Origin: Paracyclopina nana
Lineage: Eukaryota > Arthropoda > Copepoda > Cyclopoida > Cyclopettidae
DNA length: 64,000 nucleotides
NCBI GenBank assembly: GCA_019096065.1
Contig: JAGUCH010000007.1
Span: forward strand, 6,036,501 to 6,100,500
Direction: 5' to 3'
This document shows positions 1,308 through 52,653 of the stretch, piece by piece. Within the stretch, counting starts at the first letter, position 1. Every line of letters starts with the position of its first letter. The translations under genes were made by a program, and so were the position numbers. The notes beneath the pieces are model-generated. The model saw only the letters and a program-made list of their open reading frames with translations, was not told the DNA's origin and made no database searches.

Positions 1308-1554
1308 TAATCATGATATCAAGAGAAAACTACTGATAATAATTTTGTTCTAATCATTGTAATTGTTTGCACGAAAGAATACTTGCCCATCACACTTTTC
1401 AAGTTTAAGGTTTAAAAATTGATGTTGTGGCCTGTCTCTACATTTTGTGACATCTAGTTTCTAATGGGAAGATCAGTTTACATCCTACTACTTTTGGGTG
1501 TTGTATTTCTTCAGGCCAAGCTGAATGACATAGCTTTTTCCATTCAATTCTGTG

Positions 1555-3076
1555 TTACAAGCCCCAACTATAATTTGCAAATAGTCTTCTTATGGGATGA
1601 AATCTCAGTGGAGAGTAGGGCTTGCAATCAATTTTTGTTGACTTGCCATCAATGATGTCAGCTAGTAGCTCCACAGATCCAAAGCTCAATGTCCAGCCTT
1701 TGGAGCCATGCCCAGTGATGGCAAACAAGTTTGGAATCAAAGTCTGGCCTATGATTGGGATGTCATCAGCACACACTGGTCTGCAAGCAGCAAAGAATTC
1801 AGCCTTGGTCTCCTCCAGAAAGCCTGGCTTGAAAGTTTTGATGGTATTCTCCAAGATTTTGGGGCACCCACTTGTGTCAAACCTAAAAGCAACAGCTAGA
1901 TTTTCCATTTGATCAAGGCAATAAATTGAAATCATTTACTTCCAATTGTACCCAACAGCTTCAACTCCACCAGAGATTCTTCCAATATTTGGCCTGAGAG
2001 GGCAAATCAAGGAGCCATGATCAGGACTGTAAACATTCATGCCTAAGCTCTCTGTGACTTGAGCAGTGATGACATTTCCTTTGAGAGGATAAATTGGCAG
2101 ATTGATGCCAATGGATCTACCAATTGGGTTGGACATGATGCCTGTTGCCAGCACATAAATATCTCCTTTTTCTACAGAGTTGTCTTCACAGAGAAATCCA
2201 CTCACTGTCTTTTTGCCACTTGGAGCAGCATCAATCAGAATTTCCTTTACACCACAATTGGTCTTGATCTTGACTCCATTGTCCAGGCAAAGTTTTAGCA
2301 GATTTCGGCAAAACATGTGAATATCTCCACTGCTGTCAATGCCTGGGTCATTGATGACTCCACCAACAAGTTCTTTGTTGCTTGGATGCTCAAAACCTAA
2401 ACATGGAAGCTCTTTCCTTACCTTTTCAGGTTTGATGACCTTAAAGGGTCTTCCATGATCTTGCCAGAATTTGGCTTGAGAGCTTTGCATGAAATCTCTC
2501 AAGTCTTCCTCTGAATAGTAAAGTCTAAAGAGACTTACTGATCATTGCTGATTTTAGAATCAATTTCAAGCTTTAGGCACCTTAAAGTGTTAGTAGCTGT
2601 TTTGTTAAACTCTAACTTTGATCCAAACTTTGCTTCTAGAGCTTCCATGCACTGAAGGCTGTAGAGCCCCAACTCTCTTTGAGCTGTGTGATTTCTTTCC
2701 ACTTTTCCTGGCCAAAAACAGTTGAAGGTGAACCACATTCCCCATCTCCAGAATTTATGGTCCAGAAGGGCATCCATGGTGAGCCCAATGCGTCTCAGCT
2801 CTGCTTTGTTTTTGCCAGCAATTTGAAGGAAGCCCAAGTTGCACACATTGATGGGCAAAGCATTGAACCATTTATGTAAGAGGCCTCTTTTGCAACCTCT
2901 GGGCCTTTCTCAAGCACTGTGATGTTGGCATAGCCCCTTTGTGACAAGTGAAAAGCTGTGCCCAAACCCATGATCCCACCACCTAAAATCACTACTTTCC
3001 TTGATTTATTGCCATCCTCCATCTTGGCCAATGTTCTCTTTATCACTGGGCTAGCTGAGTAATTATTTGTGAGCAT
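1555..3076 (-). CDS. DadA-like FAD-dependent D-amino-acid dehydrogenase/oxidase family protein
   Basis: Exons (complement): 2581-3076, 1940-2524, 1555-1882; introns of 56 and 57 nt. The product is about 469 residues. The N-terminal Rossmann motif VVILGGGIMGLG (GGGxxG at residues 32-37) binds FAD. EASYINGSMLCPS and FWRWG are typical of the DadA/DAO family, and the C-terminal signature is DIPIIGQTLIPNLFAITGHG...GWTLSFGS. Family members oxidise D-amino acids or N-methyl amino acids with FAD; the substrate here is unknown. I chose the ATG at 3076; residues before the Rossmann fold could be a mitochondrial presequence (inference). One frame change sits in the first exon around 2815-2822: the frame ending LAKTKQS must shift to continue as NKAELRRIGL, consistent with one base missing from a run of A (minus strand). 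The exon lengths plus one base give exactly 470 codons. No intron of plausible size explains it. The fold is otherwise complete. Confidence 0.75.
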
Positions 3077-3472
3077 TGAGAATCTGCTTGACAGAAGACT
3101 TGTTATGAGGAGAGTCACAATAATCTACTATAAACATCTGATGTGGCAACAGAATGAAAAATGTTTAAAATATGAATTGAAAAATGTTTAAAATATTAAT
3201 TGAAAAATGCCAGTTCATCATATCATTTCTCAGCCTTTTTGTGGCCAACTTTAAGTACAGCCACTTTTATTCTAATCAAATTCCACTCATGTACAACATA
3301 ATTTTCAAACCGATATGTTTATAAGCAGCTGAACTCAGCCCTGAAGTTTATTTTGGCACAGAATGGAGGAATGTCAATACTTTGTGGTATTTTCAGTACT
3401 GTAAGTGCAAGCTAAAGATTTTTTAATTGGTATCAGGATCAATATAATAGGTAATTTTGCTCATTGTTAGCC

Positions 3473-4186
3473 ATGATGGTTGAGGAAGTGGAGGCCTCTT
3501 CACCAAAATGTGGCTCTTCATGCACAAAAATTGCTGGCTTGGTCAGCCTCATAATTTTCTGGATACTTATTGGCATCATTGTCATTTTGACCACTGAATC
3601 CGAGAATTTCTTTCAGCCAGGAAGCCATTCAGGTAATTTGATGCAACATTATTCCTACCCCAATCTAAAATCAATATATCTCCAAGATTTGGAAAGTTGT
3701 GCTGAGCCCAATAAAATTGGTGATGGTTATTGTGATGACGAGAGCAACATTTATCAGTGCCAATTTGATGGCGGTGATTGCTGTGGGAATCAAATCAATG
3801 TTGAGCGTTGTTTCAAATGCGACTGCTATAACAAATCGACCACTGAAAATTACAACTCTGCAGCAGAAACGACTCCAACCTCTGGAATGACCTCAACTTT
3901 AACTGAGTCTACCACCACAGGAATTCCTCAGCAATGTACGCAAACAGTTGACCCATTTGATAGCCCAATTTGTTGGGCCAAGTGCGCTAAATGCATTGGG
4001 GACTTGATTGCAGCCTACTTGGAAGCCTCAAGTGAAGATTGCAGGTATAAGTGTCAAGCAACAGATGGATGTGAATATTTCAATGTCCACTACGTAACTC
4101 ATGAATGTTACTTGCTGAAAAATTGCCCTGGATATGAAGTGGATCATGATTTTCAGTCGGGTGAAAAGTTTTGCATGATTTGGTGA
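3473..4186 (+). CDS. Single-pass membrane protein with a Lin-12/Notch repeat and a PAN/apple-like domain
   Basis: Single-exon frame of 237 residues from ATG 3473 (a second ATG follows at once). Layout: a short N-terminal tail with CGSSC; one hydrophobic segment at about residues 20-40; an LNR at about 75-104, with spaced cysteines, GDGYCDDE and FDGGDCCG, the Ca2+-binding pattern of Notch LNRs; a Thr/Ser-rich, probably O-glycosylated linker at about 121-152; then a Cys-rich C-terminal module at about 165-235 (DCRYKCQATDGCEYFNV...) resembling PAN/apple domains. The absence of a cleavable N-terminal signal and the membrane segment near the N-terminus suggest type II topology with both domains outside the cell (inference). 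I know no named family with this order. It could be a member of an expanded arthropod LNR-protein family. It is convergent with the thaumatin-like gene; the stop codons are 16 bp apart. Confidence 0.7.
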   Translation: MMVEEVEASSPKCGSSCTKIAGLVSLIIFWILIGIIVILTTESENFFQPGSHSGNLMQHYSYPNLKSIYLQDLESCAEPNKIGDGYCDDESNIYQCQFDGGDCCGNQINVERCFKCDCYNKSTTENYNSAAETTPTSGMTSTLTESTTTGIPQQCTQTVDPFDSPICWAKCAKCIGDLIAAYLEASSEDCRYKCQATDGCEYFNVHYVTHECYLLKNCPGYEVDHDFQSGEKFCMIW

Positions 4187-4201
4187 ATTTATTATTCCCT
4201 G

Positions 4202-5718
4202 CTATGGGCAAATTGTCACATCAAAGCTGGTTTCTCCTGCAAATGAAAAATATGTATCAGCTAGATAGATGTCCAAGTCGGGAAGCTGTACTGTAGAGTC
4301 TCGGATAATTTGAGCGGGCGAGTTAAATTCATTAATTTCAAATATTTTGCATGTCTTAATGTATCCATTATTATGAAAGCGGCCTGGGTTCATTTCCAAA
4401 GGTTAAATTATTGCAAACATGCTTCAGTCAAAAAGTGCATATGTACCTGGGCAATTATGGAGGCCTGCAGCATCGTCATAGGCATAGCTGTAAGCAGTTG
4501 GGCAGTTGTCATGCACAGTTTGGACGTAGTTCGTTTGGATCACCGGTCCATTGCTGCATTCCCCAGGCTGAACTGGGGAGTTGGACAGCACATGAACATT
4601 CCAGGATCCTGAGTCTCAGGCAAGCCCAGTCCGTAGGGAGGTGGGTAATTCCACTTTTGCATGGGGACAAGCAAGCCACGACTTTGCCGTTGCTGTAAAC
4701 TCTCAAATCGCCAATACCACTGATTTCATTCTGTGGACATTGCTCCAATGCCATGGCACAATTCGTGGGAATGCATGCGCCCTTTTAAAAGAGGTTTTAA
4801 AACAAAGTCAATCATAGAGTTTTAGGGAGTAGATTAGCTTATAGGTCTAAATAGAACAAGTGCTCTGTATTTATTAGTGCATCAAGCAAAAGTTTGCCAT
4901 TTCTTATCCGATTTTCCTTTGAATTAAAATATCAAAACTGGTATTTCACTTATAATATTGAATTGTTAGAAAGGTAGAAAAACAGAAAAAATGCTCGCTA
5001 TCTCTTACAACTTTTAAACTGCAAGTCTTAATTTCGCAAATCAGAAAGTCGCGATTTTTTAAAAAGCCATGAATATAACAAATTGGAAAGGCTTTTAAAT
5101 TCGGCTTCATTGACCTAAAAATTATTTAAAGTTTTAAAAGTAGGCTTGCAGAGCCTCAATTTTTGCGTTACAGCATTAGTGACCTTACTGACCTATTTAA
5201 CTCCTCTATTTTCGTTACGCAATATTTGTTTACTTGATCTACTCCACGTGGCACAATTCTCATGGGAAGGCTGTAACCGTCCACCAGACTGATGTCATAC
5301 CAGGAATCTTGATTTGGCGGCTGAGAGGGAAATAGAATTCCACCTTGGTATCAGCTGGTGGTTGGCATCCATTGGCAGGGCACGGAGGTGAAGATTGTCC
5401 GAATTCGCACTCCTCGCCAGCTCCATTGCAATTGATTTTGGGCCAAAATCGACCAGCCCAACCGCCATTGGGAATCTGGGAAGCATTGCTGTGCTCTGCA
5501 TTTTGGCCTGTTTTATTTTGTTTGCTTTTTTACCTGGTAAGAGTGTTTTGCCCTTGGTCCACTCTCACGCTTCCGCCAGGGAGAGGTTCAACCCCGAAAT
5601 TAGGAGTTGTGGCCAGCCAAATGGGAAATGGACAAGAATTGACCACGCTCAATTCAATGGAATTCACGCGGTGGGATATGGCCAAGATGAGCAGCAAGAA
5701 TTTCATAGTGTTCTCCAT
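4202..5718 (-). pseudogene. Thaumatin-like protein (GH64/TLP fold), frame interrupted
   Basis: Exons (complement): 5534-5718, 5234-5488, 4447-4781, 4202-4236. The predicted product begins with a signal peptide (MKFLLLILAISHRVNS) and then shows the thaumatin pattern: NSCPFPIW, GGWAGRFWP, a Cys-rich stretch, WYDISLVDGYSLPM (the conserved YDVSLVDGYNLPM block), a central CPTAYSYAYDD block (the family's YSYAFDD) and C-terminal FDVTICP (family TFCP). Length, about 270 residues, is normal. Introns are 45, 452 and 210 nt. The frame carries about three single-base breaks, all next to short homopolymers; total length is consistent with three missing bases. So this is either a decayed copy or a victim of sequencing undercalls. 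TLPs are secreted disulfide-rich proteins, known as antifungal/PR-5 proteins in plants and as induced immune proteins in arthropods. Confidence 0.7.
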
Positions 5719-5936
5719 CTTCCCCTGATTTTGACCTTTTGCAAGAAGTGATTAAAAAGAGACGCAGATAAGATAACATAGTACTTAAAATATAGATAGC
5801 AAGGCTTGAATTTAAAAGTTCTGGATTAATCCGGGATGCAGCATTTTATCACAGTTTCTTAGCTGTTTCCTCTTGATTTTATTAATCGCATAGTGCTTTT
5901 CTAATTAGCCTTATTATTGAATCATGATGTCAATTA

Positions 5937-7237
5937 CTATTTCACTTTTGTTAGTTCTGCTGACAAGTTCCATAATTGCTCAGAGTCACCAAGCAGCTGA
6001 TCCACTTTCTTGTTTTCCTTCTCTGCCAATTTGAAATCCCTGTAAAAATATCCACTCTGAAAATGAAAAGATTTTATTGATAATTTCACACTTTTGAGTT
6101 AAATTAATTGATTAAGCAATTCACCTGGATGAGCTGAGAGTCTTCTAGGACAGCATGGATTATATTTTGGGCTCCTTCAGTTGCACTCCTCATGAAAAGG
6201 AAAGCAATGGGGGCAAAGAGTATCTTTTTCAACCATGAAAAATGGACATTTCTGGCTAGCTCCGTTTTACACCAACCAGGTCCAACACAGAGAACTTCCA
6301 CACCCTGCAGCAAAAACATGTTCATGACAAATCAAAATAAGGCTGTAGATCATACCTGATGTCTTGAAGCCAAATCTCTCGAGAAAATGGCATTCATCAG
6401 CTTGGAATCGCAATATCCTATGGGAGCATGCTTTGGGACAGGTTCACCTTCAAGGATTTTTCTGCCCTCATAAAACTGCCGCGACTCATCCAGATCTAAT
6501 TTTCCTGATAGCATGAGACCAGAAGAGACAACAACGACTCTTTTGACTCTATCCAGGAGCAAGTTGGTGAGGAGGAAGTGACCCAAGTGGTTGATGCCCA
6601 CATGAGCTTCAAATCCATCTTCAGTCTTTGCCTTCTTCTCCATTGGCACCCAAACTCCAGCATTGCACACCAAGAAGTCAACAGCAGGAAATTTCTCCTT
6701 GATTTCTTGTGCAAAGTCATGAACACTTTGGAGGCAGCCTAAATCCAGCTGGACGACTTGGACCACATTTGTTGATCCAGTGGACTTTTGGATTTGAGCT
6801 GCAGCAGCTTCGCCTCTTGAAACGCTCCTGCAAGCCAAAATGACTGAAGAAGCTCCACGACGGGTTAATTCTTCTGCTGTATGGTAGCCAAGGCCAGTAT
6901 TGCCTCCAGTGATGATGACAACCTTAAAACGAATTTTACTCAAAATCTTGCTGACGGCTCATTATTTACTTTTTGATTGAATTTCAGTAATGGAATTAAA
7001 TCATTAAATCGATAATTGACTTGAAATATCTAGTTGCTTTTTTAAGAAACTACATGTTCATAAAAGCATTTTTTGAATAAGATTTTTAAAAGTATTCACT
7101 TTTCCTTCGAGGGTTTTGTCCCTTAGGTGTGGAATTCTGGCAATTGATCCCCAACTCCTGGCTCTTAAGGTCCTAAGCAAGCAAAGGCCAACGACAGAAA
7201 CACTCAAACCACTCAAAGTTGCCGTCAAAAAGTCCAT
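5937..7237 (-). CDS. Retinol-dehydrogenase-like short-chain dehydrogenase (RDH11-14 type)
   Basis: Exons (complement): 7100-7237, 6356-6922, 6125-6304, 5937-6056; 334 residues, frame intact. The N-terminus has a hydrophobic membrane anchor (ATLSGLSVSVVGLCLL). The NAD(P)-binding motif TGGNTGLG lies at about 51-58, NAG at 133-135, catalytic Ser at 179/180 (VVVVSSG) and the YxxxK motif YCDSK at 216-220. The C-terminal SGYFYRD matches the end segment of RDH proteins (SGKYF). These enzymes reduce or oxidise retinoids and other lipophilic carbonyls at endoplasmic reticulum or mitochondrial membranes using NADP(H). Clean phases and splice signals make this the best-preserved enzyme of the 0-7 kb cluster. 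The substrate cannot be told from sequence. Confidence 0.88.
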
Positions 7238-10505: not shown

Positions 10506-13500
10506 ATGCAAGTGATGGCGAGAGAGATGTGCTGCAAATCATTCGTGGCCTTTTTCTGGATCATCCACCTTTCCGAGGGCATCCAATGGCTGTAAGTTCT
10601 TTTTGAAATTATTTTTGCAAGTATTTTTTAAAGTGCGAAATTTAAGGTCTTTGTTGATTTCAAGCTGAATTTTGGGATGTTTGGATCTAATTGCTAATTT
10701 GACGAATTTCGCTTGTCATTCCGGATTTTCAGCTGTTTGTTATGTTTTAATATTATATGCGAAATTTGGCCAAAAACATATCATGAATCATGTGAGCAGG
10801 GCCTAAAATAGCAGATGATCTGGGCCTGCCAGAATGTATTGTTTTTTTGACTGACATGACATGACGAATCACCTTTCGATACGTCAATCAGTACACACAT
10901 ATTCTGGTATAGACAATAGCTTACAGAAATTCTAATCCTCTTTATATCGTGTAGAAGTTTATCCCATACTTGCAGTTCACCAAGACAAAAGAGGCTGCTA
11001 TTAAATTTAGCCAAGCCTATACAACTCAAACTCAGTAGTTGCATGTTCAGCCAAATTATCACGTAATTCTGCAAGGCAAAATCAAGAGAATGCCTTTTTT
11101 TCTGGCCTCGGCCAAAACGATTGCAACCTGATCCAGACCTTGTCCGAAATTTCAATCAATCCCATTGTGTGAGTGCCAGCATTATTATTTTGGTATGCAA
11201 TAATTGGGTGCTTCATTGTTGCCAATGCTTTTTTTTTAATTCTTCATTTCGGCCCAGTGTGCAGCAAATTGGCCTCCTTCTTTTGGCGGTCAAGTAAAAT
11301 TCGAGGGGTCACACTAAAACGCGCACACACTGTGAAAAATGCGCACATTCGGCTCACGGTGACATTCTCATCTTTTCTCATCTAATTGAATTGAAAAATT
11401 CCATCTTGTCTTCAGTCCCCCTTTTTGCTGTGTCAACTCCTTGGAATTTGGAAAAATGGCATGTTTGGACTTTTTGCTGAAAGCAGCTTTCAAGCACGAT
11501 TTTCTCCAGTTGGAAAACTGCTGGAGAAAAACACAAGTTGGTAATTTTCTCACATGAAAGTGGAATAATCATCATATTGGTGGCCCGCCGGAAATTTCTG
11601 TCAAATTAACAAGGTGTTTTCCAGGTTGGCTGATATTAACCATCTCCTCCCATTTCGGCTATAATTATGTAACGTTGGTAGCTTTTAATTAAAGCCGTAA
11701 GCTTTCAAAAGACTCTCTAGCCCAAGTCTGCATAGTGTAGTAAATACTTTCTAGCTTCCTCGCGTAGTAGTACTATCGCAAGCAAATATTGGGCCAAATG
11801 TCTGATTTACAGCTAGACAAATGCGTTTTACTACAAGTTCAGCTGGTTTTTGTGGGGCCTCTCCATCTACTCAAAAAACCTATTTTTTTCCATTTTTGGA
11901 AAATTTATCAGGCATTCAAGCCATTTGACCAAACAGTTGAATTTTGATGATTGAATTGCCTCCGTTTTCCATTTTTCGAAAATGTATGACGTAGATGACC
12001 AGCATTTGTTTACTTCGGGTTTTTTTCCGCGAAAGACTTGAGTCATTGATGAGTGGGAGATTTATGGGCTGGCAATTGATTTGTGCTTGCCTGCTGCTGT
12101 TTATTTCTACAAATCTCAGCATGCCTGCGATCAGCAAACAAATACTCGCCAACTTTTATTGCAAATACAGCTGCTGTTGAACAGGTCCGCTCGCAAAACA
12201 AAACCATTGTCATGTCCTCGGCTCTGGGTAATGGGAGTTGACAGTATCTCTGCCACTCATCTCCATATTATTTTCTAAAGCCTTTAGTCCACCTGCACAC
12301 TGGGGCAAACGTCCAGAAAAACCCCATTCCACGATTTAGCTAATTACAACGTCCAATTGTTAATTATGCTTTGTTTTTTTTTATTCAATTTTGAAAGATG
12401 AGGGCGCTTTGGAGCCAGTTTGCCCCAGTGTGCTTTGGTTAGTGTCTGTCGGCAATTTCGACTATTGCTGATCGGAAATGCAATTCTCAGCCCACTTCCT
12501 TTCACAAAAGCACGCGAATAATAATAATTATGACGGCTAGAAAATGATGGCATTCTTAGTTTTAAAACGTCCGCCATCTTGGTTTTTTCTTTATACTTGC
12601 ATAGCTTCGTCGTTGGTTTAGGATTTCCGATTCGCTTCGCATTCTGCCAACCAACAAAACGTTCAAGTTTATTAATGCTTATCAGGGTTGACAGCTTGTC
12701 CAGCACACTGTGGAAGCCGGGCAAAAATCCCCCCGCCCCGCATGGGCAACCAGTGACCCTACGGGGTGTTTCCGAATTTCAAAAGAAGAAGAATACCCAT
12801 CAGAATTAATGTGGGTGTGCAATGTGTTCAATTTAGGCGTGTGTGGGTGTCTTTTAAAAGATGCTGCTGCTGCTCTTTTAAGGCTCCAAAACTATTGATT
12901 TTTCATCAATGGCACAAAGTAAACAAGGTCCTTTTTTCCATCTATTTTCCATCAGGGCTCAAAAATATATGAAATTGCTATTAAAAAAGAGTTTTTTAAC
13001 CAAAGGGCTTCTTTTATGAGATGGCAAAAAATCGAGATGCTCTGCATGTGGTAAAGTAGTAAATCTTGTGATGCTACCACACACGTGGAAATCGAGCTGA
13101 AGGAACTCAATTTAGAAGGTCATCTTTGAAAATTCATGGTGCATGTCTAAATTAAATATGAGAGCTTATAGTAATGTGTGGTGGGCATCATTTTTTGAAA
13201 CGGCTCTCAAGCCATGGCTAAAAGGGCTCGTTGCGTGACCCTTTCTAAAAAAAACTAACAACAAAACAAATTTGAATGGACCTCGTCCATCATTCATTAT
13301 GAGCGAACCCCCCCAGTAATAAACACCTTAAATTAGGCATGTGCTATTATCTACGCTGCACGTGAAAAAGGCTCCCATTGAAATGAGTTTTGGCCTCATA
13401 AAAGTCCAATCGGTGAAAAAAGGCTTTAATCGTCAGCTTTTGCATTATAAATTATGTGAGATTTGGTAGCGCTGCAGCAGGTTAGCTCAAATCAAAACAA

Positions 13501-16500
13501 ATAGTGAAAAAGCGCGTAAAATAAGGCTAAAGCCACCAATTGAATTCAAGCAATTATTTTTCCGGGTGAAATGTCAATAAAAACCAACATTAAAAACTCT
13601 GTAGGGAGAAAATTGGCCTTAATCTTTAATTTTTGCTTGTAAAAGTAGCAATTGGCTTTTATCTTTAATTTTTGCCAGTAAAATTAGCAAAAGATCTGGC
13701 AGCGCTGCAGCAAGTTATTTCAAAATCAAAACAAAAAGCAAGAAACGCGTGAATCAACGCAAAAAACCTTATTTAAAGTGTTTTGCGCCGTTTTGTGTTT
13801 CTGAATTTGGGATTTGGGACTTGGAAGGTAAGACATTTGAGCTTTTTGTGGGTGCGTGAAAAGGCAGCAAAAACGACCTCGAAAAATGGCGATGACAAGC
13901 CCGAATTTGTCAAGCTCGGCGCGGAAATGTTCATTTGTGAGAGAAACATTTTTTTTCAAAGCTTGTCGTTGAAATCTCTGATGTAATGGACAAGCCGAGA
14001 ATTAGCTCAATGAAGCGGCGAAAAACTGGGTGGCAAGCAGCCCCATGCACAGTGGGCAAAAAAGTGCAAAAAAGCCCTTATTGGGAGTCGGGCGCGCGAA
14101 GCCCCTCCACCACCTCAACAACAAAAAAGGGGTGTAAAAAAATGTTCTCACACTGGATCAAGCTGATTTTGATGTTGATTTGCACCTTGAATTTTGTATA
14201 GTTTCCCACAGTGTGCAGCTATACTCCATAATTAAGGACTTATTGGCTTAAAAGTTGTTTACCATGTGTTTTCCCTACACATACTTTATCATGGGCGCGT
14301 AACTAATTGATGTGACATTTTTGATCGATTACCAGCTCAAAACAGGATGAAGCTGTTGTTGAACACAAAAATCTATGACTTTTTTTCCCGTCTCATCTTG
14401 TGTGTGTGTGCGTGTGGTCCAAACTGTCAAAAAACAAAAGAATTTGCAATTCAATACTGGCAATTTTCACTTCAAACTTCATTAAGACTCGGAGCTTTCA
14501 AAAAGTCCCACCCACCCACCTTTTTTTCTAGGCCTTTGTTCACCCCTAAAATAGCCATTAGCAGGGTAAAAAAGAGTGGAAAAAGTGAAAATTATTTTTG
14601 CTTCCAAGTTGTTTTGAGAGGTGTGTGCATGCACTTTTATTGGCATTTCAAGGCTAGTTTGAGTGTTGCAAATTGGCATGTCAAAGATGGCTCTTAATGA
14701 GTAGTTACCACCAATGTAAGGGGTCCAAAATTGGCCTGGAAATGCAGCAGCAGCAGCAGTAATTCTATTGTGCGAAAGAAATTTATTTTCCTCGCACACA
14801 AAATGGACTCATTGTCCTGTTCAAGCCGAGTGAGCTATAAGGGTGGTCCAGAAAAAGGGTCCCCCAAAAAGTCCACAATTTTGCATGCACTCCATGGGAT
14901 CAAAAACAAATTCCAAGAAATCAAACCTTTATTCAACTTGGGTTATTGAACTCATTGCCATGAGTGCATATCAAATTTTGACGACAGTTTTGAACCTTTT
15001 TTATTTTGGAAAAACATAAATAAAATTACTGAGTGATTACTTAATTTTGCTTTCAGTTCCCAAAAGTGAAATTGAACCTTGAAGGAGAACTTATGATTGT
15101 CAGTATAAAAATATAAATCTTATAAGAAGTTGTAGAAAAGAGTACAAAAACATTCCTGGTAGGAGCAGCAAAAAAAAGCCCCAAAAGACAATTACTGAGT
15201 ACAAGCTCAACTGCTTCCTTTGCCAATGGGCAAAGCCAACTTTCTGTTGGTCTTTTGTATTTGATGAATGCATTAGCAGCAGTCGCAGAAGCTTTTTTCC
15301 CCAATAGAAGCATAGTGTATATGGGGCAAAGTCAATGGTCTACTCCTGGCAGCTGTCATCAAAAAATCCCAGTACAAGACCACCCCGTATTTTTGTAGCA
15401 CTCAACCGAGTGGCACACAAATGGTTATTTGGTAAATTGAATGGCTCAGCGGGAGATTGAAAGTTGTCGCCTGAATGATCATCATCTTACTGTGTGTTAT
15501 ATAGATAGACTCGTGGACATTATCCCCCTTTCATCACCTGCTCAGCAGCCACACTAATGAAAATGTCTCTTTTCGGCCACAAATTCCAGCCAAATTAATT
15601 TTCTGCAAGACTTACAAATTGGAAATTTGCATTCTGCCGGGGGAAATCCTTCAAAAATGCAATTTGTTTACATTTATGTCAGCTGATGCCAGTATGCAGG
15701 TCACCAGCTTGGTCTAGACTTTGATTGAATAGGGAGACATTTTCAACTGAATTTGTCATCTTAATTAAAGTTTCTGCACAAAAATGGGAGCTGATGCCAG
15801 CAGTATGCTGGTCACCAGCTAATTGTTGACCTGAGCTGCAAATTGAGGTATTTTAAGCTGAATTTTGGGCAAACACAATTAAAAATGTCAGCTGATATGC
15901 AGGTCACCTGCCTGGTCTGGATATGAGCTGAAGTTGTGCTCAAGGAAATAATTTAAACCTTCACTTAGCCTTATCAGGGGATGTCAGCTGTAATACACAG
16001 CTGACTTTGGAACTTTTAGCTGCAAATTGAGACATTTTGGGAAGAACTCTAGGGAAACTCAGAGATTTATAGGCAAACTGTAGTGTTTAGGAAGATTGTT
16101 TTGTCATTTTCTATGTAATGCCATTGTCTTTCAGCAGGTTTTTTAGCAGAGGTGGCTCAGACACAGATAATAGTGTCTGAAGCTTGGTTGACCTGGTGAT
16201 AGATATATGGGTCATAAATAAAGGTAGAGCTTGTACCATACCTTGTAAAAGGTCTCTAAGGAAGACAAAACCCAAATTGAAAATTGATTTTTCAACCATG
16301 GAAGTAGTAGTAGTAGTAGTTCTTTTTTAAGGCCAATTAGCAGCTTTTAGCCTAAACCAAAGTGGAATTTCAAAAGCTTTTTTATGGCTCCTATCTTCCT
16401 TTTTGTGGCATTTTTGCATTTTTGTTGTTGAAAATGAATAGCAGTGCAAGAAGAGCCACTGTGGGCTTTAAATGTGTGCCAAAATAAAAAGTTTCAATTA

Positions 16501-19500
16501 GCAGGTTGAAGAAGATGTTTTCCCCTTGATCAAATCTGATATCAGAGGAGTTGTCGAAATGGTCACTCAAAACTGACGTGGGAATCGAAGTCTGAACAAT
16601 GAAGAGACACAAAAACATTTGGCTTAGGAATCTCCACTATGCCAAGTGCCTTTTGAGCTTCCAATATCACTTCTCAGCATCGAAATGGGGAAAAAGATTT
16701 TGATCACAGATATCTGCTACAAGTACTAGATCCGATGCACAGTCGCACACTGGGACTAGCCCAGTAAAAGTACTAATGTGTAGAAACATTTTCCACAAGC
16801 AGTAAAATCAAAAGTCGCAAACTTAATCGAGGATTCATTGCTTGGAAATATGATTTGAGCCCCCGAAGTTTGTGGTGGAAAAAATTGGAAGTTTTCTTGC
16901 AGATCCGATGCACAGTTGCACACTGGGGCTTGGTAGGCGCTTAATTTTTAAAAATATTGAAGCACATAAACATTTTTCTTGTTAGTAAACTTTAAGTAAA
17001 AGCAAAATGCAGGCTTTATTGAGGATTCGTTGCTTGGAAATTTCTATTTCAGCTTAAAAGTTTGCCAAAAACCAAAGTGGAAATTTTTTACAGATCCGAT
17101 GCACAAATGCACACTGGGGCCTATTTTGAAAATTCTTGTTAGGAAAGTTTGCGTTCGCTATTTCAATATTTTAGACTTTTAGTGACTCATTATTTGGAAA
17201 CTTCATTTTTGCTCTAAAGTATGGCAAAAAATCGCATCTTAGGCAAAATTAGGTATGTCAATTTTCGTAAGAAATTGATAAGGATGTGCAGCAGCAATAT
17301 GAAATAGATCAAAGAAATCAGAAAATTGGGGAACTTTTTCCCCAGTGTGCACAGTGCTGTTGACAGCCGTGAAATTGCCCAAAAGCAAAGTGACAGTTTC
17401 GGCCCTCCTAATATCACGAAATATGACGCACATTTCACAGGAATACACAAAAGAAGAAGGAGGAAGCTAGAAATTCCTGGTAGAAAAGTGATCACGTTTA
17501 TGGCTTGGAAGAAGAACAAAAAACTTCCACTGTGACCAAGATTAACCTGAAACTTTTAAGGGATTACCCCAGTTTTTTCGTAGTAACACACTCTGGGGAA
17601 ATAATATGCATATATGGTGGGTTTTTTTTATTCTGTGAAACTCAATTTGTTGATTGCAAGGTGTGAACATGAAGCCCTCAATCTTGGAAGATTGCAGGTC
17701 GTAAAAATGGTGTGAACTGGAAAATATTTTGAGTCACCTAGGAGCAGAGTGTGTTTGGAGCACAAAAAAGAGGCAGTCGAAGCAATAAAGTTGTAAAAGT
17801 GCCAAAATCCAAAGTCAAAACTTAATGGAAAACGTGATTCCTGCAAGATTGAAGTTCTTCTGTAAGCAACAAATTCACTCGAGGCAAATCACACAAATCA
17901 GATTATTATTGCCTGTGGCAACTGATTTTCCAAATATCTTAGGCCTGTGAATATTCAATTGCGGTTGAGTCTCCTTTGTCGGCAAATTTTGAATTTTCAT
18001 TGTATTTTGGGGTCAACTCTCCTCGAGTGGAGTAATTTGGTCACGTAGAGGTCATTTGAAGATGAGACGACAAAAAAGTAGCCAAAGATCCATTCATCTT
18101 GGTGGTTTTTTTTACGGGGAAAAATGTGCTGAATCACCATTCGATCATTGAACACACTCAGAAAGAAAGTGACTTTTTGCCTTACATTAGCTTATAAGTA
18201 CTCAGGCCCCATTGGAATTTTAATTCAGTTTTGGGAACTGAAAACAACATGGCAAGAAAGCAATCAATTCTCATAAGTGAACAAAGTGGGAGTTTTCTCA
18301 AAAAATTTCAAAATATTGTAAATAAATTGTCAGAATATTTAAAAGTAAAAAATATTGATGATGTTATTAATATGATATAAAAGAATATTTTCACATTTTG
18401 CTGAATACGTCCACTTTGTACCAAAGTGTGATTTTAACTCTGTTTTCCCCTCAGTGGAGCTATTGATGCTAACTTACAATGGCACACATTAGTCTGGGCC
18501 ATTAAGGTGTCAGATCGATTTGAAGTTGGCACTCAAGGCCCATTTTTTCTTGACCATATTGGGCTTTAAGTAGAATCCATCCAGGTGTATTGATTACACC
18601 CCAAAAAGCTAATTGGCCATGAGGAGGAGCAGAGCTTTTAACAAAAATAAACAAAAGCTGGGATATTTTGAAAACAAGGTTTAATTGAGTTATGGAATAT
18701 TCCTCGCAGGCAGGGAGAGGAGATTGTAATAGAGATAGTGATCAGTAGTGAGTTGAGCTACTTTAAAGCTTCCATGTCGCGTTTTTGACATAATAGCACT
18801 TTTGATGACATCTAATCTGGTCACGAGATCCACTTTTTGCTGCTCCTACTTCTACTCAAATGATGACAACAGAGTTGTAAAACGATTGATCCCATCCACA
18901 ATAACAACATGTTTCTGATCCCTATCATGCATGCATGACAATAAACATCAATTTACAATGTCATTCAAATTTTCTCAATTATTATTGCTTGCAATGCCAG
19001 GCTTCTTTTAATTGACTTCAGCTGTCGCGAGAGCGCTCAGAGTTGCTGTTATCAGCTGTCGCGCGCGCGAACGCCACTTTCTATAAACAAAACTGCTTAA
19101 TGGCTTGCAAGCGTTTGAGGAGTGCAATTTGAGCTAATAGCAACATGATGTACTACACTGAAAGGTTTTCCAAACAAATTGAATTGAGCAATGTTTGGTT
19201 GCTGCATGTAGTGGTAGTGTATATCGATTTCAAAGTTGGATGGATTTTTGTTTGCCGGGAAGTGTGCCCAGAACAAATAAAGTTTGAGCAGGCAGAAAAG
19301 CGCCAATGCGACACATTTCGGCGCAAAAGTTTCCTGTGTTTGGCTGCCTTCATCCAAAAACACAGCAAATGCAATTTGGCAGAAATCCTTTCAATTTGCT
19401 AAACTTTGCTTTGTTCTCTAACATTTTTGAGCCCAGTTTCACCACGCAATCAGCTGTGGCGAGCGCTATTTTGTTATTCATAGTCAGCTGTTGCGAGCGC

Positions 19501-22500
19501 TATTATGTTATTGAAAGTCAGCTGTTGCGAGCGCGCGGCAAACTTTTCACAACAAAAGCTGCCCAGCACTCATTTTCTTGGAAAATGAATTAAATTCTCT
19601 CCGCTGCAATAATTTGCTCTTTGATCTCGCCCATTTCATGGGAAATTATTTTTTGCAGCTCTTTTTCATCAGCATCATGATCTGGTAGTAGTAGCCAAAG
19701 TTGAGCGGCCTGTGATTACTTTAAAAGATTCAAAGCGTTGAAAACCGACAAAGAAGCCATGATGCGTTTTGGCGAAAAAAAACCCCTTCTCTGACCTCTT
19801 GATGTTTGCTAGATGAGTTGGAGTCACGAGAAACAGAAGCTGGTTCAAAACCACAAATCTAATATATTTTCTATGGTTTTCAAAAAGCTGCTGAGTTGCT
19901 GCTCTGTGCATGCAAAAATGGTCGTAAAAACTGGGAAAGGGAAAAAGAGGGAAGGGGGTCTTCTTCTTCTACTTATTTCGAAGGAAATTAATGAATTGTA
20001 AAAGTTACTGCAGTCACAACATGGGCACAAAAGTTTCTTCAAAAGTATCAGCTTAAGCAGTTGAGTAAGAAGATTATTTTTTAAGCCTGTTTTCCCCCAC
20101 TGTGCCAAGTAGTGAGCTGGTGGCTTTCCAACAAAAAATGAGACAAATGGAGAAAGACAATGAAAAAACGTAAACCTCAAGCAACCTAATTGACCCTAAT
20201 GTACAATCCATCTTTTCTTCCAGTTGCTGTACTTCTGACGATACTTTACTTTATAAAAGTTTCGCTTTTTTATGTTGTCACCCGTTCAAAACAAATAGCC
20301 AAGAATTGAGATTCAATTGTTGACGCTTGAATTTAGTTTCAGTCTTGCAGAACTGAAATTGAAACAAACTGAGAAAAATCTATTTACATCGACATTTTTG
20401 TTTTTATGTATCACAGTTTTTTATAGATCTTTTAGGCTGAGAAAAAGAGGTAGTAGTGGGTGGTCAAAGCTCGGTTATGTTTGTCTGCAATTTTAGGCGT
20501 GTGAAATGAACAGCCAAGACCATCTCTATTATCTAATGAACATTTCGCCTTCGGGTGAAAATCTGCTGGCAAAGTTTGGCCCCAAAACACTAGACTCCGG
20601 TGGCCCACCACCAATGATAATTACCCATTATGACACGAAAACTCAATTATGAGCAGAGTAATTTAAGGAGGCGCCTGCGTTGTAAACTTCCAAATTGTTT
20701 TTTAAACTTGTGACTCTTCGAAATGACTTGGAGATCATGTAGCACTCACGTTTTTCTGACTTATGAGGGTCATGAAGAGGCTTGTGAGGCAATCACATAA
20801 ATTTGGGGACACCCAACCTTTTTCTTATACCATTGTAAAGTGCTTTAGTAAATCAGATAGTCGTTCATCTCGAAATTCTAAAATAATCTTGGCGTAAAGC
20901 AACGCTTAGCTATTAAATTAAATTTCAGTTTTGTTGACTGACGCAAAATTCAAGCGATGACAATCGAGTCTCATTATTTGGGCATTTGTTTCAAATGAGT
21001 CACAACATCCAAAAAGCGACTCGCTCATCCCAAAAAGTTAAACATCGTCAAACGCAAAAAATGCAATTTTAAATGTCCAAGAAGAAGGACTGGAGTTTTC
21101 GCAGAAAATCCGGGCTGGAAAGAGAACCTTGTGTCACATTTGGAATTAGAAAAGCGTCATAAAATCAAGCATGTCCAATGCGCGTTTATCACCTCGCATA
21201 AATTCCCTTTCGGATTTGTCACAGCCAAATTCGCATTTAGCAGTTTCTTTTCTCTTTTGCAGGGCACTGTCCAAATTTTCTGCTGTGGGAGGAGGACCAG
21301 GAGGTTCACCTATGGAGACCTTGTCACCAGAGCAAATGTGCAACTCGATGAAAGGGTCGCTCATCAAAAAGCAGGTAAAATACGAAAACTAATTTGGCAG
21401 GAGCATTGTTTGGCTCATGCTATGTTGTCAGCTGTCAATCCTGGATTATTGCAATGGCAGCAATTTTGCGACAGCTAAAAGGAGATGCTATCATCTCGCT
21501 ACACTGAGCAAATTCAATAGTTTTTCTTCTTCATAGCCTTGCTGCTCCAGAAAACACCATTGCGCTCTCTCTATGTGTGTGTCTCCCATATTTGTGACGT
21601 TGGAGAAAATGGGCTGAAAGCATCTGTCAGGATATTATGCGAGTCACTTTGATAAACAAACAGCTGACTCGGCGCAACATAAACAAACAGCTGATGATGA
21701 AGACACCCCAATTGTTTATTAGCTCAAGCCCTATAAAATGTCTATTTACAGGTGAATTTCTGCAAGGAGAATCCCTCATTCATGGACTCGGTCAAAATTG
21801 GAGCTGCGAGAGCCATTGATGAGTGCCAGTTCCAGTTCAGGTCGAGAAGGTGGAACTGCTCCACTCTGGATGAGACCATGAACAAAAACATGGCTCTCAT
21901 CACTGCCAGCCTCAACAGCTTCACCTCTGGGCCCAGCAAAGGCTTGGACTTGCACCATTTGCCCACCAGCAGCCATGGGGGCTACATGAGCAACGGGCTG
22001 AACCCGCTGCAGTTTGACACCAACAACAACATCTACAACAACATTTATGGTATTGGGGCCCAGATGCCAAATGGCAACAGCAATGACAGGTCTTCCAGAC
22101 AAGTGCAGCAAAGTCTCAACAGGAAAAGGAATGTGAGAAGAGGCAGAAGACTCAGCCGCAGAGGTAAGCAGTTTTGTCAACAAACAGCTGATGTTTGTCA
22201 ACAAACAGCTGAATTACGAAATGTAAACAAACAGCTGACTTGAATTTTCTCCTTGTTATTATTTCGCAAGCTGGCAACTATTTTGATGGATACTATGAAG
22301 GTAAAAAAAACCGTGTTTCCCTTTGCTCATTTTTTAATAATGCCATTTTATTCAAAAAGCTGACAGCTACTTTGAATTAGAAGGCTTTGATCTTGATGAA
22401 GGAGAAGAAGAAGAGGAAAATGAGGAGGAAGGTAAAAGGAGTGAAGTCGCAAAAAATGCATGCTTGAGTCTTTGTTTTGCTTATTCATTGGGGGAAATCA

Positions 22501-25500
22501 TGAAAGACATATCCGACAGTTAAAGCTGGGTTTTGAATAGTAGCATAAGGGAAGCAGAAGGATTTGTTGGCAAAAACGACCAAATAAGATGACAGCCTTT
22601 TGTTGGCATTAGCTAAAGCTTTCTTTCTACTGCCATTGCTGATATGTGAGATGATGACAGTGCTCATGGTTGAGATTGCAGCCACAGTGACCCGCCAGGA
22701 ATTTCCCATTTTCACTAGCATAACTTCAGCTTCAGCCATTATCTGCATCCATAATAATATCACTTGCTATCAAGTGATTTTATTTTTTAAATGAGATGTT
22801 GGCACTTTTGATTTGGAGATTCATTGCGGCTTCCCAAGCTTTTAGTTCTGCCAAGTCTGGAGTCATAAGATGTCTGATTTTGACAGTCATGAGCACTGAA
22901 GGCACAACCCCCTTCCATTACCAATGAGTACCGAAGAAAATCATTGTGAGCGCGGAGCCTCTTGTTTTCAAAAGCGTAAAGGAGTAGAGTAGGTAAGTAA
23001 CGCAGATGCTGAGTTGAGCTGAGCACCAAAAATTCCAACGAAGCTAAAGTTTCACACAGTAAAATTAAAATGCGTGCAAAGTCTTTAGTTTTTTTTCTAA
23101 CAATTCAAGCCTTAATTTAGATAACTAATATACATTGAGTTGGATTTAAGTTGAGAGGAAATGACAAACTTTTGCATTAAGCATGAAAAAAATTAGATCA
23201 GAAAGTAAAAGTGGGCTTGCAGTGTCTCAGCATTTGTGCTACTTGCCTTCTCTACTCCTTTACTCAATAGCGTTATAATAGTCAACAAAAGTAAGCTTTT
23301 GCTGAGAAGTGCTGAGAGTGCTCTGAGGGTATGCACATTCCACAGCAGTGAAGTGGGCAGGTCAGAAAGGAGGTCATCATCATGTCGAAGCTCAGAGCAA
23401 TGAATCAAGGCTTGGAATGATCAGGCCAAGTCATTAATTCAAAACGCCTGGCTCAAAGTGTCCAAAAATTTTCGTAGGTGGTCATTACCAAGCCTCAGCA
23501 TAGCCTACAGCTGCTCAAGCCAAGAACCGTGAAATTGAGTCTTTATCTATCTTCATCCCTTTTCTGGCATTGACACTCTTATCACCGTTCTGAAATTTTA
23601 ACTGGTTTTGGGCTCGGTCACAAACAACAGTATATAAAATCTAGTGAGATTTTGTAAATAATCAGCTGATGTGATGTTGACCCGTATGCCGGTGATGAAG
23701 TAAACAAATAGCTGATTCACTCTTATTTATTTTTCATTTCAATGTTTTTTAAATTAAGCTTTGTTTTTTTTTGCTGGTAAACAATCAGCTGTTGTTGACC
23801 AGTATGCTCAATTTAGGTAAACAAACAGCTGACTTTTCTTTAGTAGTAGTTTGAGTCTTTTTAAAGGTACAACTGATCAACAACAGCTAAATGTTGCAGC
23901 AGACGAGGGCAGGGTTTTGCGGTTTCGCTGTGTGACTAGCAGCAGAATGTGTAACCGAAAATAAAAGTCGACAGGTGACGGGCAAAGAGGGTCTGATTAT
24001 CGTCGTGTGGTTTCCTTTTTCGCATCTTATCCCCTTTCATTTGCTGTAGTAGACATCCTGTGTTCCAAATTAGAGTGGATTATGAGCATACCCTGTCATT
24101 TGAACAACACCTTTTTCCCGAAGGAATGTTTCCAAGCGAGATCTGTTTTTTCATCAAATCGTCGTAACCCAGTAACAGTTTGTATGCTAATCAGAGCTGA
24201 GCTGTGAAATTGAGCATACCGTGCATTCTGCAAAATAAGGCATTTTTCGAGCTTTTTAACAAAAGCCTGCAACCCCTGAACCTAAAAGCTTTTATTAATT
24301 AATTTTCTTACTTTAAAGTAGTCATTTTTCGATAGTACTTTTCAGCAATGGTGAAATATCAAAGAAAACTCTGCTAAAATATGGACCATAATAATCAGCT
24401 GAGCGCTAAATATTTTTGAATGATTCAAAACCCAATTGAAAGTTGTCTTGAATTGGGGCGCGCACGGTATATGGGAAGAAATGGAGGAATATTGGAGATG
24501 ATGATATGAGCCCCATTTTCTGCTGCTGCCAATCTTCCACCAACAAACCTTTTTCTGGCCAGGTTTTATCCAAAATGGAGCCATTATAGCTCTTATTCTA
24601 AGGGGTCTCGACTATAGCTCTCTTTCAAGAGAAGAATCAATTAAGATAAAGCTCGCTCGGTTGAGCATTTACATTCCACGAGCAGCAGCAGCAGCAAAGG
24701 CTCCATTTTGAGACAGAACTTCCACTCAGATAATAGGAGGAAGTTTTTATGCCTGCAAATCAAATTATTTCTGGAATGCAAATAATCTCGCCCATTTGTT
24801 TTTCCCGGCCCCAAATTGGAAAATTAATTCTATATCCCTTTTCTCATAAGAAAACGTAGCAGCAGTGCCCGACCAGAAATACAACAGATAACAACGCTCA
24901 GCAAATATTGTCCAAAAATTGTGTTTGAACTCTGATCATGTTTTTCAGTTTTTCTCAAGTGTGTGATCTTTGCAAAATTGAAAATAAACACAGAATAAGA
25001 ACTAAGAAGAAGGGGTTAGAGCCACCGAGGGGATCATGAAGATGATGATGTAGTGTAGCCATTAATTTTGCCCAATCCAGATTTTAAGCTTCAAAATGAA
25101 GCAATTCTGGAGCCCCCCGTGAGCCCGCACAGTGGGACAACAGTTGAGAAACAAAACCGGAAAGCAAACAAAGTTCACAGGGGAGCAGCCGAAATTCTCG
25201 ATTTTTAAAAAGATATTTGACTTGGCACTCTGATGTGAAGAGCAGCGTCAAAAATGCGCGTGTCAACATCCACACCCTGCCAAAAAGAAGAAGTGAAGGG
25301 TTTTCGGCCTTAAAAATGGTGGGAAGAGGTTGCAATAATAATGCTTTTGCCGACAGAGGGTGGGAGGAAGCTGTCGACACTTTACTCAGCTTTGGCGCCA
25401 TGCTTTGCTTTTTCCCTCACTTGACCTTTTGTGCAAATCAAAAGGCCTCGTTTTGCATGATTGCACCGGGTAATAATAAGCCAGGCGTGCCAACGAAATT

Positions 25501-28500
25501 GCCAAGGCATGCACACAACTCAATGAAAAAAAGCCTGCAGCGAAAGCTGAGTCATCGCCCAAATGTAAACAACGTTATCAGACGGCCCGCTTTGTTGACG
25601 CGCTTTTGTTGCTCAAAACAGCCACTCCAATGGCTTTTTGCGCGGTTTGGTGTACGCTCTGTTACGGCACGTTTTACCCGAATGCCGACCATCATTATCT
25701 TTGCATGCCTCAAATTGATCATTGCAAATTGGGCATTTTAAATTCACAATCTGTAATTTCAGCTCGGCACGGATTGAATGGCACCAATGGCAATAATAAT
25801 AATGTCCAGCAGCAAGACAATGCTGAGGAGGAGTTGAACAACAATGACACCAGAGTGGTGGCTGCCAATGCTGGACAAGTGCAACAGGCTTCTCCTGCCG
25901 TTCCTGCCATTGCTCCTGCATCTGGGATCTTGCAGCCAGCAGTTGGCAGTGGAAGTAGTGCATGGTCTTCATCAAAAAATGTGTCAATTTTGAGCCCTGG
26001 AATACCACTGGATGACAGCATAATGGGCAATGACAAGAAGAAGAGGAAAAACAAGAAGAACCGAAGGAAGGGCAAAAAGGACAAGGAAGGCAAAGTTCCT
26101 CTGGGTCCTTATCCAATTGTTTCTCCAGGTAAATAACGAATCCCACACGTGAAGAATTCCTTTTTTGCTCAATTTTCTTATCAAGCAGAACAAACTGATG
26201 AAGGGTGGAGTTCACACTTGTGGAACTGCTCTTTGTTATATATGCTAGCCTATTTTGGGTGACATACTCACACACGCACACGTGGGCTGAATGCTTTTCA
26301 GACCCACAAAAATTAGATTTGTTCACGTTTTTAAAGATGAACCTCCGGAAACGAAAATCCAATCCGGACAAAGCCAGCTATCAAAAACAAACATAAAACG
26401 CCAGAAACCTTTCATTTTTATTTTTGTTTTGATCTCATCTGGGAACTCTTTTTAACCCACGTGACACAACAGCGCCATCCTTAAAGTCAGCGGCCAAAAC
26501 TTGAACCACACTTAATTGAATTATTGAAGCCCAATGAATAATTGACCTAAATTCAATTGTTGCACAAATGGAGGCGAGACTTGATGATCATATCCATTTC
26601 AATAACACTTAACATTAATTTTTAGGAACTCGCGAGTCCGCCTTTGTGCACGCCATTTCGAGCGCGGGGGTTGCTCATGCACTCACCCGAGCTTGCTCAA
26701 GCGGAGACCTGGAAAATTGCGGCTGCGATCGATCATTAAGGGGCATGTCTCCAGACGGCTTCCAGGTAATTACAAACATAACAGTAACAATTCAGATTCG
26801 GATTTCATGCCACTAAATTCCAATTGCAGTGGTCGGGTTGCAGCGACAATGTGGACTTTGGCATCACTCTATCGCGCCGATTTGTGGACGCGCGCGACCG
26901 CCAGAAAAGCAAGAAAAATCCGCGAAATGCCCAACCATTGATGAACTTGCACAATAATGAAGCTGGACGAAAGGTATGTGTAATGCCGTATAATACCCTC
27001 TCATTATCTGTCACCCGCCAAACGCACTCCTCAGTTCCCGACCAACATTTTATTTTAATTAAAACCTGACTTGCTGGCATAAAACTCTTGTAGTATGCTC
27101 AAAAAGGAATCCAGAGCATTTTGATGATTTTTCTGCTGTCAACTCGGTAGTCATTTCAAGTATGCCTTCAAAGTTATGCAAAGACTGCTTAGCGTCCGGT
27201 GGGGATCTTTTGTGCGCTGCAGATTATAGCATTACCATTATTTCCCTATTCTTAAGCCAGCCTAAGGGCAAAAAGCTCTATCTTGGGCGACCACACAAGT
27301 GCCTTTTTGTGGCCATTGCGCCGCTATTAATTGACCCCTTTTCATGAGTTATGAGGCGAGAATGACTGTTGAGAATCCAAACAGCCCCATTATAATTAAT
27401 ATTTCCATTTTGCTGCCGCAGCTTTTGGAGCGAAACATGAAAGTGGAATGCAAATGCCATGGTGTATCAGGCTCGTGTGAACTCAAGACCTGCTGGAGAT
27501 CCGTGGCCTCCTTCAGAATGGTGAGGTTTCCTTCTAAATTAGTCTTGTCATCAAAGCAATTTCTTACTTGATTATTCACAGATTGGAGAGATCTTGAAGA
27601 AGAAATTCGACCAAGCCCAAGAAGTGCGTCAAAGGAAGCGCAGAGGTCGTCGCATGCTCGAGCCTCGCTTCCAAAGGTTCAAGCCGCACACCGACACAGA
27701 TTTGGTCTTCTTGAAGAACTCCCCCTCCTACTGCGACTTCAATGTCAACGAGGGCTCTTTGGGAACCCATGGGAGAGAATGCAACCCTGTAAGTTGTCAA
27801 GAATTTGCAAACGTTTGCTAGTTGTAGATTGGTTTTGGAAATGGTGCTTACGCCTACTCTACAGCTTTGTGTGTACCATGAATACACTCAAGTATATCAA
27901 GGATACACAAAGAATACACCAAAGAGCATACAAAGAATACACTGAGAGTTAACCTTTAGATACTCTTAGAGTATATCAAGGATACACTTAGATTGTATCA
28001 AGGATACACTTAGATTGTATCAAGGATACACTTAGATTGTATCAAGGATACACTTAGAGTATATCTAGGATACACTTAGATTGTATCAATGATACACTTA
28101 GAGTATATCTAGGATACACTTAGATTGTATCAAGGATACACTTAGATTGTATCAAGGATACACGTAGAGTATATCTAGGATACACTTTGAGTACATATCT
28201 AGGATACACTAAGATTGTATCAAGGATACACATAGATTGTATCAAGGATACACGTAGAGTATATCTAGGATACACTTTGAGTACATATCTAGGATACACT
28301 TTTGAGTACATATCTAGGATACACTTGTACATATCTAGGATACACTTTGAGTACATATCTAGGATACACTTTGAGTACATATCTAAGATACACTTTGAGT
28401 ACATTTCAAAGATACACTTTGAGTACATATCTAGGATACACTTTGAGTACATATCTAGGATGCACTTTGAGTACATATCTAGGATACACTTAGAGTACAT

Positions 28501-29018
28501 CAAGGATACACTTAGAGTATAAAAACGATGCACTTAGTGTGTAAAAAGGATGCACTTAGTGTATAAAAAGGATTCACTTGGATTACATATCTAGGATATA
28601 CTTAGAGTACATATCTAGGATACACTTTGTATACATATCTAGGATACACTTTGAGTACATATCTAGGATGCCGACTTTAATAATAATGCACTTTGTTACA
28701 CTTTTTAAAAATATAATTTCAGAGATGGCTTACATTTAGTTTATTTTAGTACCCTTTTAGAAAGGGACTACTACTGATGATACTGTATGCAAATTGACAC
28801 TATGATTGAAATTCTGCAGTGCATTACATTCAAATCCGGATCTTTTGTTCTTTCAGAATGGAGACGGCCCCGAGAGCTGCGATGCCATGTGCTGCAACCG
28901 AGGCCACGTGACCCGCACAGAGCGAAGGGTCGAACGCTGCAAATGCAAATTTCACTGGTGCTGCTTTGTGCAGTGCGAAGAATGCTACCGGGAAGTGGAA
29001 GTGAGCACCTGCAAGTGA
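10506..29018 (+). CDS. Wnt4: Wnt4 ortholog with a large insertion
   Basis: Coding exons: 10506-10591, 21263-21374, 21752-22163, 22271-22300, 22360-22431, 25763-26128, 26626-26765, 26830-26973, 27422-27520, 27582-27788, 28857-29018; 609 residues, all phases consistent. The signal peptide is at the N-terminus ([17 protein letters not shown]). [30 protein letters not shown] and [10 protein letters not shown] match Wnt4. The frame resumes at residue 360 with [20 protein letters not shown], then [28 protein letters not shown] (lipid-acceptor Ser at about 470, where Porcupine attaches palmitoleate) and the C-terminal [12 protein letters not shown]. It is a secreted ligand for Frizzled receptors. 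Vertebrate WNT4 is about 351 residues; here residues 108-359 are an extra 252-residue low-complexity, charge-rich segment split over four exons. Intron 1 is 10.7 kb; others range from 59 bp to 3.3 kb. Wnt4 rather than another class is supported by NWL-like/SxVG, MDSV and [12 protein letters not shown]. Confidence 0.93.
12295..12433. repeat. 16-bp perfect inverted repeat around GCACACTGGGGCAAAC
   Basis: GCACACTGGGGCAAAC at 12295-12310 is exactly complementary to 12418-12433, with 107 bp between. The same CACACTGGGG core recurs elsewhere in Wnt4 intron 1, including all three units of the ~180-bp repeat. It could be a tiny fold-back element or a recurrent regulatory word. Confidence 0.6.
13460..13750 (+). 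repeat. Degenerate direct duplication, spacing about 230 bp
   Basis: A segment starting near 13462 (TAGCGCTGCAGCAGGTTA, then CAAATCAAAACAAA...GCGCGT) recurs in diverged form near 13692 (CAGCGCTGCAGCAAGTTA, then the same trailing words). Between them is a shorter duplicate of an ATCTTTAATTTTTGC stretch. It looks like an old tandem duplication in Wnt4 intron 1. Confidence 0.55.
15679..15920 (+). repeat. Three diverged copies of a CAGCTGATG...CAGTATGC..GGTCACC module
   Basis: Copies begin near 15679, 15788 and 15888, about 100-110 bp apart. Each has (C/G)AGCTGAT, a TATGC core and GGTCACC. Fragments of the same module (TCAGCTG plus GTTGACC.GTATGC) recur 8 kb downstream at about 23661-23690 and 23785-23810, inside a later Wnt4 intron. 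Confidence 0.55.
16729..17260 (+). repeat. Three tandem degenerate ~182-bp units in Wnt4 intron 1
   Basis: Units start at 16729, 16912 and 17093 (lengths 183 and 181 bp; the third fades out by about 17260). Each opens with GATCCGATGCACA, followed after a few bases by GCACACTGGG, and carries a second conserved block about 110 bp in (AGGATTCATTGCTTGGAAAT or a variant). This is a degenerate tandem repeat, not an open frame. Confidence 0.75.
19019..19535 (+). repeat. CAGCTG...GCGAGCGC repeats, 34-bp period in part
   Basis: TCAGCTGT(C/T/G)GCGAGCGC-like words occur at about 19018, 19053, 19450, 19484 and 19518. The last three are spaced exactly 34 bp and share GCTATT(T/A)TGTTATT spacers, so they form a short tandem array. 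All lie in Wnt4 intron 1. Confidence 0.65.
21653..22238 (+). promoter_or_regulatory. Cluster of composite TAAACAAACAGCTGA elements
   Basis: Copies at 21653-21667 and 21680-21694 (intron 2), and TCAACAAACAGCTGA at 22177-22191 and 22198-22212 plus TAAACAAACAGCTGA at 22224-22238 (intron 3). Each joins a forkhead-type core (T(A/C)AACA) to a CAGCTG E-box at fixed spacing. The sequence is observed; transcription-factor binding is inference. Confidence 0.55.
23655..23832 (+). promoter_or_regulatory. Second cluster of composite forkhead/E-box-like elements
   Basis: Variants at 23655-23669 (TAAATAATCAGCTGA), 23701-23715 (TAAACAAATAGCTGA), 23778-23792 (TAAACAATCAGCTGT) and 23818-23832 (TAAACAAACAGCTGA), all on the plus strand in the 3.3-kb Wnt4 intron. 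Same composite as the cluster around 21.7-22.2 kb. Confidence 0.5.
27880..28672 (+). repeat. Minisatellite with two interleaved unit types in the last Wnt4 intron
   Basis: About 0.8 kb of tandem repeats. The 5' part uses a 22-bp unit (GGATACACTTAGATTGTATC plus AA) and the 3' part a 24-bp unit (GGATACACTTTGAGTACATA plus TCTA), with hybrid and diverged copies at both edges. Open frames through it merely translate the repeat. It lies between the exons ending at 27788 and starting at 28857. Confidence 0.92.

Positions 29019-49329: not shown

Positions 49330-52653
<3,324 letters not shown>

Follow-up and report, generated by a model that had tools for sequence, protein, structure and literature searches.

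The window, that is the whole stretch of 64,000 nucleotides analysed here, carries a complete Wnt4-type gene on its forward strand with one loop of the N-terminal domain greatly enlarged (Table 1). Its exons span 10506-29018 and encode 609 residues plus stop from the first ATG, as counted in the spliced frame rebuilt from the window. The insert has exactly 252 residues between WNCSTLDE and GTRESAF and extends from 21875 to 26128. It is made of the 3′ portion of exon 21752-22163 and the exons 22271-22300, 22360-22431 and 25763-26128. The initial annotation had claimed a 252-residue insertion in the Wnt4 domain, and its residue count, coordinates and phases all proved exact when the frame was rebuilt. 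Our preferred reading, to which we give a probability of about 0.4, is an intact Wnt4-class ligand, whose loop from WNCSTLD to GTRE has expanded from some 11 residues to some 252 and may serve as a mostly disordered, charged tether with basic binding patches limiting the spread.

Table 1. Exons of the Wnt4-type gene and features of its insert (window coordinates)
Feature	Position	Strand	Remarks
Wnt4 exon 1	10506..10591	+	Probable signal peptide; ends in phase 2; less secure than the rest because of its weak donor
Wnt4 exon 2	21263..21374	+	Aligns with the starts of the WNT3 and WNT7A chains
Wnt4 exon 3	21752..22163	+	Conserved VNFCKEN part, then the first 96 insert residues from 21875
Arg-rich run	22127..22162	+	Holds RGRR
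Short candidate exon	22271..22300 (30 nt)	+	Phase 1-1; GNYFDGYYE; open; AG/GT borders; weak acceptor
Short acidic candidate exon	22360..22431 (72 nt)	+	Phase 1-1; open; AG/GT borders; weak acceptor
Long insert exon	25763..26128 (366 nt)	+	Phase 1-1; Gln/Asn/Pro/Ala-rich part; Lys-rich run; 3′ end LGPYPIVSP
Conserved Wnt exons	26626-26765, 26830-26973, 27422-27520, 27582-27788, 28857-29018 (stop)	+	Match Pfam wnt and the WNT3 chain

Outside the insert, the protein is an ordinary Wnt in profile, cysteine framework and hairpin. The Pfam wnt profile PF00110 matches it with an E value of 3.9e-113 in two stretches flanking the insert, and the WNT3 chain matches with 4.8e-95. The core has 24 cysteines, all of them outside the insert, and the acylated-serine hairpin, which we aligned with the Wnt3a acylated peptides 7urd and 7ure. 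With both the cysteines and the acylation hairpin complete, the insert appears to be tolerated.

From GTRE to the C-terminus the identity with human WNT4 is 59%, against 53% for WNT3, 50% for WNT7A and 49% for WNT5A. On identity with these four Wnts, the gene is closest to WNT4 and would belong to the Wnt4 subfamily. Exon 1 was found by searching for a hydrophobic start with a phase-2 donor, and its candidate start codons are at 10506, 10515 and 10527. Joined to exon 2, it gives a WNT4-like N-terminus resembling the WNLYLAKLSSVG-type start, which we liken to the start of human WNT4, taken here to be NWLYLAKLSSVG. Wnt4 has been reported missing in insects but found in Daphnia, spiders, ticks, an amphipod and tardigrades (PMC3003278, PMC5111886, PMC8711157), which would make an insect an improbable source of this gene, provided that the animal is an arthropod. 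A scan of viral contigs found no relatives of the Wnt core, and a scan of bacterial genomes gave one match of 31 residues (L001, an Elusimicrobia MAG), which has no C.CHG motif in its three forward frames and was put down to chance.

The insert contains no cysteine and is polar, rich in Asn, Ser and Gly and low in complexity. An Asn/Ser-rich start is followed first by an Arg-rich run, then by an acidic block and further on by a Lys-rich run. By FoldIndex, the charged parts come out negative and the Pro/Ala/Val-rich part positive, but the value for the whole insert (-0.07) is not clearly lower than that for the core (-0.03), so we infer disorder mainly from the composition. Our literature search, with the subscription literature mostly outside its scope, found no paper describing this Wnt4 insert.

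In the preferred reading, the insert would be a mostly disordered, mixed-charge tether looping out from an otherwise normal Wnt fold. Its basic runs would form exposed patches, with heparan sulfate or another acidic matrix as the simplest partner, and these patches might restrict the ligand spread. Were some transcripts to skip the short acidic exons, the net charge would change. The Lys/Arg runs are plausible candidates for the heparan-sulfate binding and its tuning; a Cardin-Weintraub scan (XBBXBX) matched only once, at GKKDKE. In other Wnts, exposed charged loops are responsible for LRP6 binding (PMC10089208), Reck-dependent signalling (PMC6588345) or coatomer binding (PMC11633749), and by analogy a function of the charged insert loop is plausible. 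A point against this reading is that the basic and acidic blocks could cancel each other out.

Neutral or nearly neutral expansion is a possible alternative, in which a tolerant loop has been lengthened by simple repeats and slippage without acquiring any specific function. The insert does have low-complexity AAY, GAR and CAR runs, and searches of Pfam and PDB found neither a domain nor a relative (best E values of 0.28 and 0.36). However, in this one sequence the frame stays open across four exons and the charged residues are clustered in blocks, both of which would speak against this alternative.

The coding character was examined by a codon log-odds score that contrasts non-coding DNA with a training set of 3,538 codons, picked by eye from other open frames in the window. 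The insert part of exon 21752-22163 (96 codons) reaches 0.106, compared with a maximum of 0.092 in sliding non-coding windows of 96 codons. Exon 25763-26128 (121 codons) scores 0.226, compared with a maximum of 0.048 in those of 122 codons. Thus, these two long parts, together about 218 of the 252 residues, score above every non-coding control. Stop-free windows make up only 0.7% and 0.35% of the non-coding ones at 96 and 122 codons, respectively. The test is modest, as some plainly conserved Wnt exons score about zero or below, and the score of 0.58 for exon 22360-22431 comes from 23 codons, too small a length for a firm test. The insert looks genuinely coding, its two short exons being less certain than the long parts.

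This difference bears on a partial artefact of the gene model, with one or both short exons unused or another, unseen exon used, which we consider possible though less likely than not. The acceptors of exons 22271-22300 and 22360-22431 are indeed weak, having A at -3 and ranking 54 and 84 among 311 AG sites. Moreover, intergenic DNA searched at equal thresholds yields about 1.7 comparable phase-1 exon candidates per 4.4 kb, so one short exon could be false. Against an artefact stand the codon scores of the long parts and the in-frame stop at 22241-22243, 3′ of the donor 22163. A donor is needed before this stop, and the one at 22163, with a score of 6.7, clearly outranks all others of the region. 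An earlier donor that would yield a loop of normal length was rejected, since among the remaining phase-1 GT sites up to 22163 the top score is -1.5, at 22049.

The 5′ ends of the two short exons are alike at 13 of 16 bases (shuffle P of 0.03), and both exons end in GAAG/GTAAAA across the donor border. These likenesses weakly suggest a tandem exon duplication, and the two are perhaps duplicates. The same region holds six copies of AAACAGCTGA within 21658-23832, out of seven in the window, mostly as AAACAAACAGCTGA, where 0.43 would be expected window-wide. Two copies lie upstream of exon 21752 and three inside the 107-nt intron before exon 22271. The intron between 22431 and 25763 contains, at 22976-23263, a MITE-like inverted repeat of 38 nt, 87% complementary, with 212 nt between its arms.

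In Wnts of known structure, the equivalent surface loop is short. WNT3 reads TIDD-SLAIFGPVLDK-ATRES with a loop (SLAIFGPVLDK) of 11 residues; for vertebrate WNT4 the initial annotation gave about 10. LGPYPIVSP aligns with the normal loop end, PIVSP being opposite PVLDK in FGPVLDK of WNT3, and is probably the old end of the ancestral loop. On this alignment not all 252 residues would be new, and the net gain over WNT3 is about 241. It also suggests expansion inside an ancestral exon, which would now be in four pieces.

The three insert exons had been proposed as a modular set that can be skipped without frame loss. This is right as to the frame, for each is phase 1-1 with AG/GT borders and 8 of 8 include/skip combinations stay open, and a large insert does lie over frame-neutral exons. 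The modularity is probably curtailed at exon 25763-26128, because its skipping would also remove conserved positions of the loop end. Hence, this exon is unlikely to be a pure cassette, and the two short exons would be better candidates. Alternative splicing of the insert exons is only possible, the phase symmetry alone being no proof.

Processing by a furin-type protease after the insert RGRR would give a two-chain or trimmed ligand, an outcome we regard as improbable. RGRR and LSRR had been named as minimal furin-type sites; RGRR fits, but LSRR is without the P4 Arg and falls outside RX(K/R)R. The motif scan thus leaves one site in the insert, inside a dense basic run where no fold is predicted. 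Among shuffles of the insert, 9% contain one or more such motifs, and the ordinary core has three, namely RSRR just before WNC and RKRR and RGRR in the inter-domain linker. The position of RSRR is common to other Wnts, with RGRR in WNT3 and RHRR in WNT5A. As the motif occurs also in the ordinary core, it is by itself weak evidence for cutting, and furin cutting of the insert is weakly supported. The linker at 27620-27665 carries RQRKRRGRR with two of these motifs; its counterpart in other Wnts binds LRP6 or coatomer.

A lineage-specific Wnt4 with a long disordered loop could, in principle, switch between charge states through two acidic mini-exons, tandem duplicates of each other, that are used alternatively, so that the isoforms would differ in matrix binding and range, but we hold this to be very improbable. 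A pseudogene was rejected on the grounds of open frames in all exons and the presence of the core cysteines.

The last Wnt4 intron contains a minisatellite at 27959-28669, in which a unit of 22-24 nt is repeated about 31 times. By Pfam, the neighbours at 1-6958 and 29862-62563 encode an FAD oxidoreductase, an LNR-domain protein, a short-chain dehydrogenase, fn3 and VWA7 N-terminal proteins, a SIS-domain (GFPT-like) protein, an ADP-dependent glucokinase, an MFS transporter and a NIF-type phosphatase, the last being CTDNEP1-like and convergent with Wnt4. Beside the GFPT-like exons, ATTCCCGnACCGTCCAATTTTGAACGGTCAGAC occurs within 50150-50570 once in each orientation, at about 50190 (-) and about 50535 (+), an arrangement resembling the two ends of a small inverted-repeat transposon.

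Wnt proteins are held tightly by disulfide bonds and vary little in their core, and the cysteine-free insert of this size marks a loop open to new binding modules. Returning to the charged tether, this Wnt4 is a natural case in which to ask whether the spread of Wnts is controlled by charged disordered loops. It also cautions that such exons may be lost from automated gene models.

Compared with vertebrate WNT4, the gene is alike in the block order of the core, in the N-terminus and in the identity from GTRE on, but human WNT4 has about 11 residues in the loop where this gene has 252. Among the arthropod Wnts, Drosophila Wnt5 (DWnt3/5) and Wingless have long extra segments, and Drosophila Wnt5 is reportedly processed. 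They belong to subfamilies different from this Wnt4. The charged segments of other Wnts (PMC10089208, PMC6588345, PMC11633749) are likewise charged, flexible and exposed and have extra binding functions, the binding by the insert being putative. Those segments, of about 10-20 residues, are N-terminal or inter-domain, whereas the insert occupies a different loop and is more than 10 times longer.
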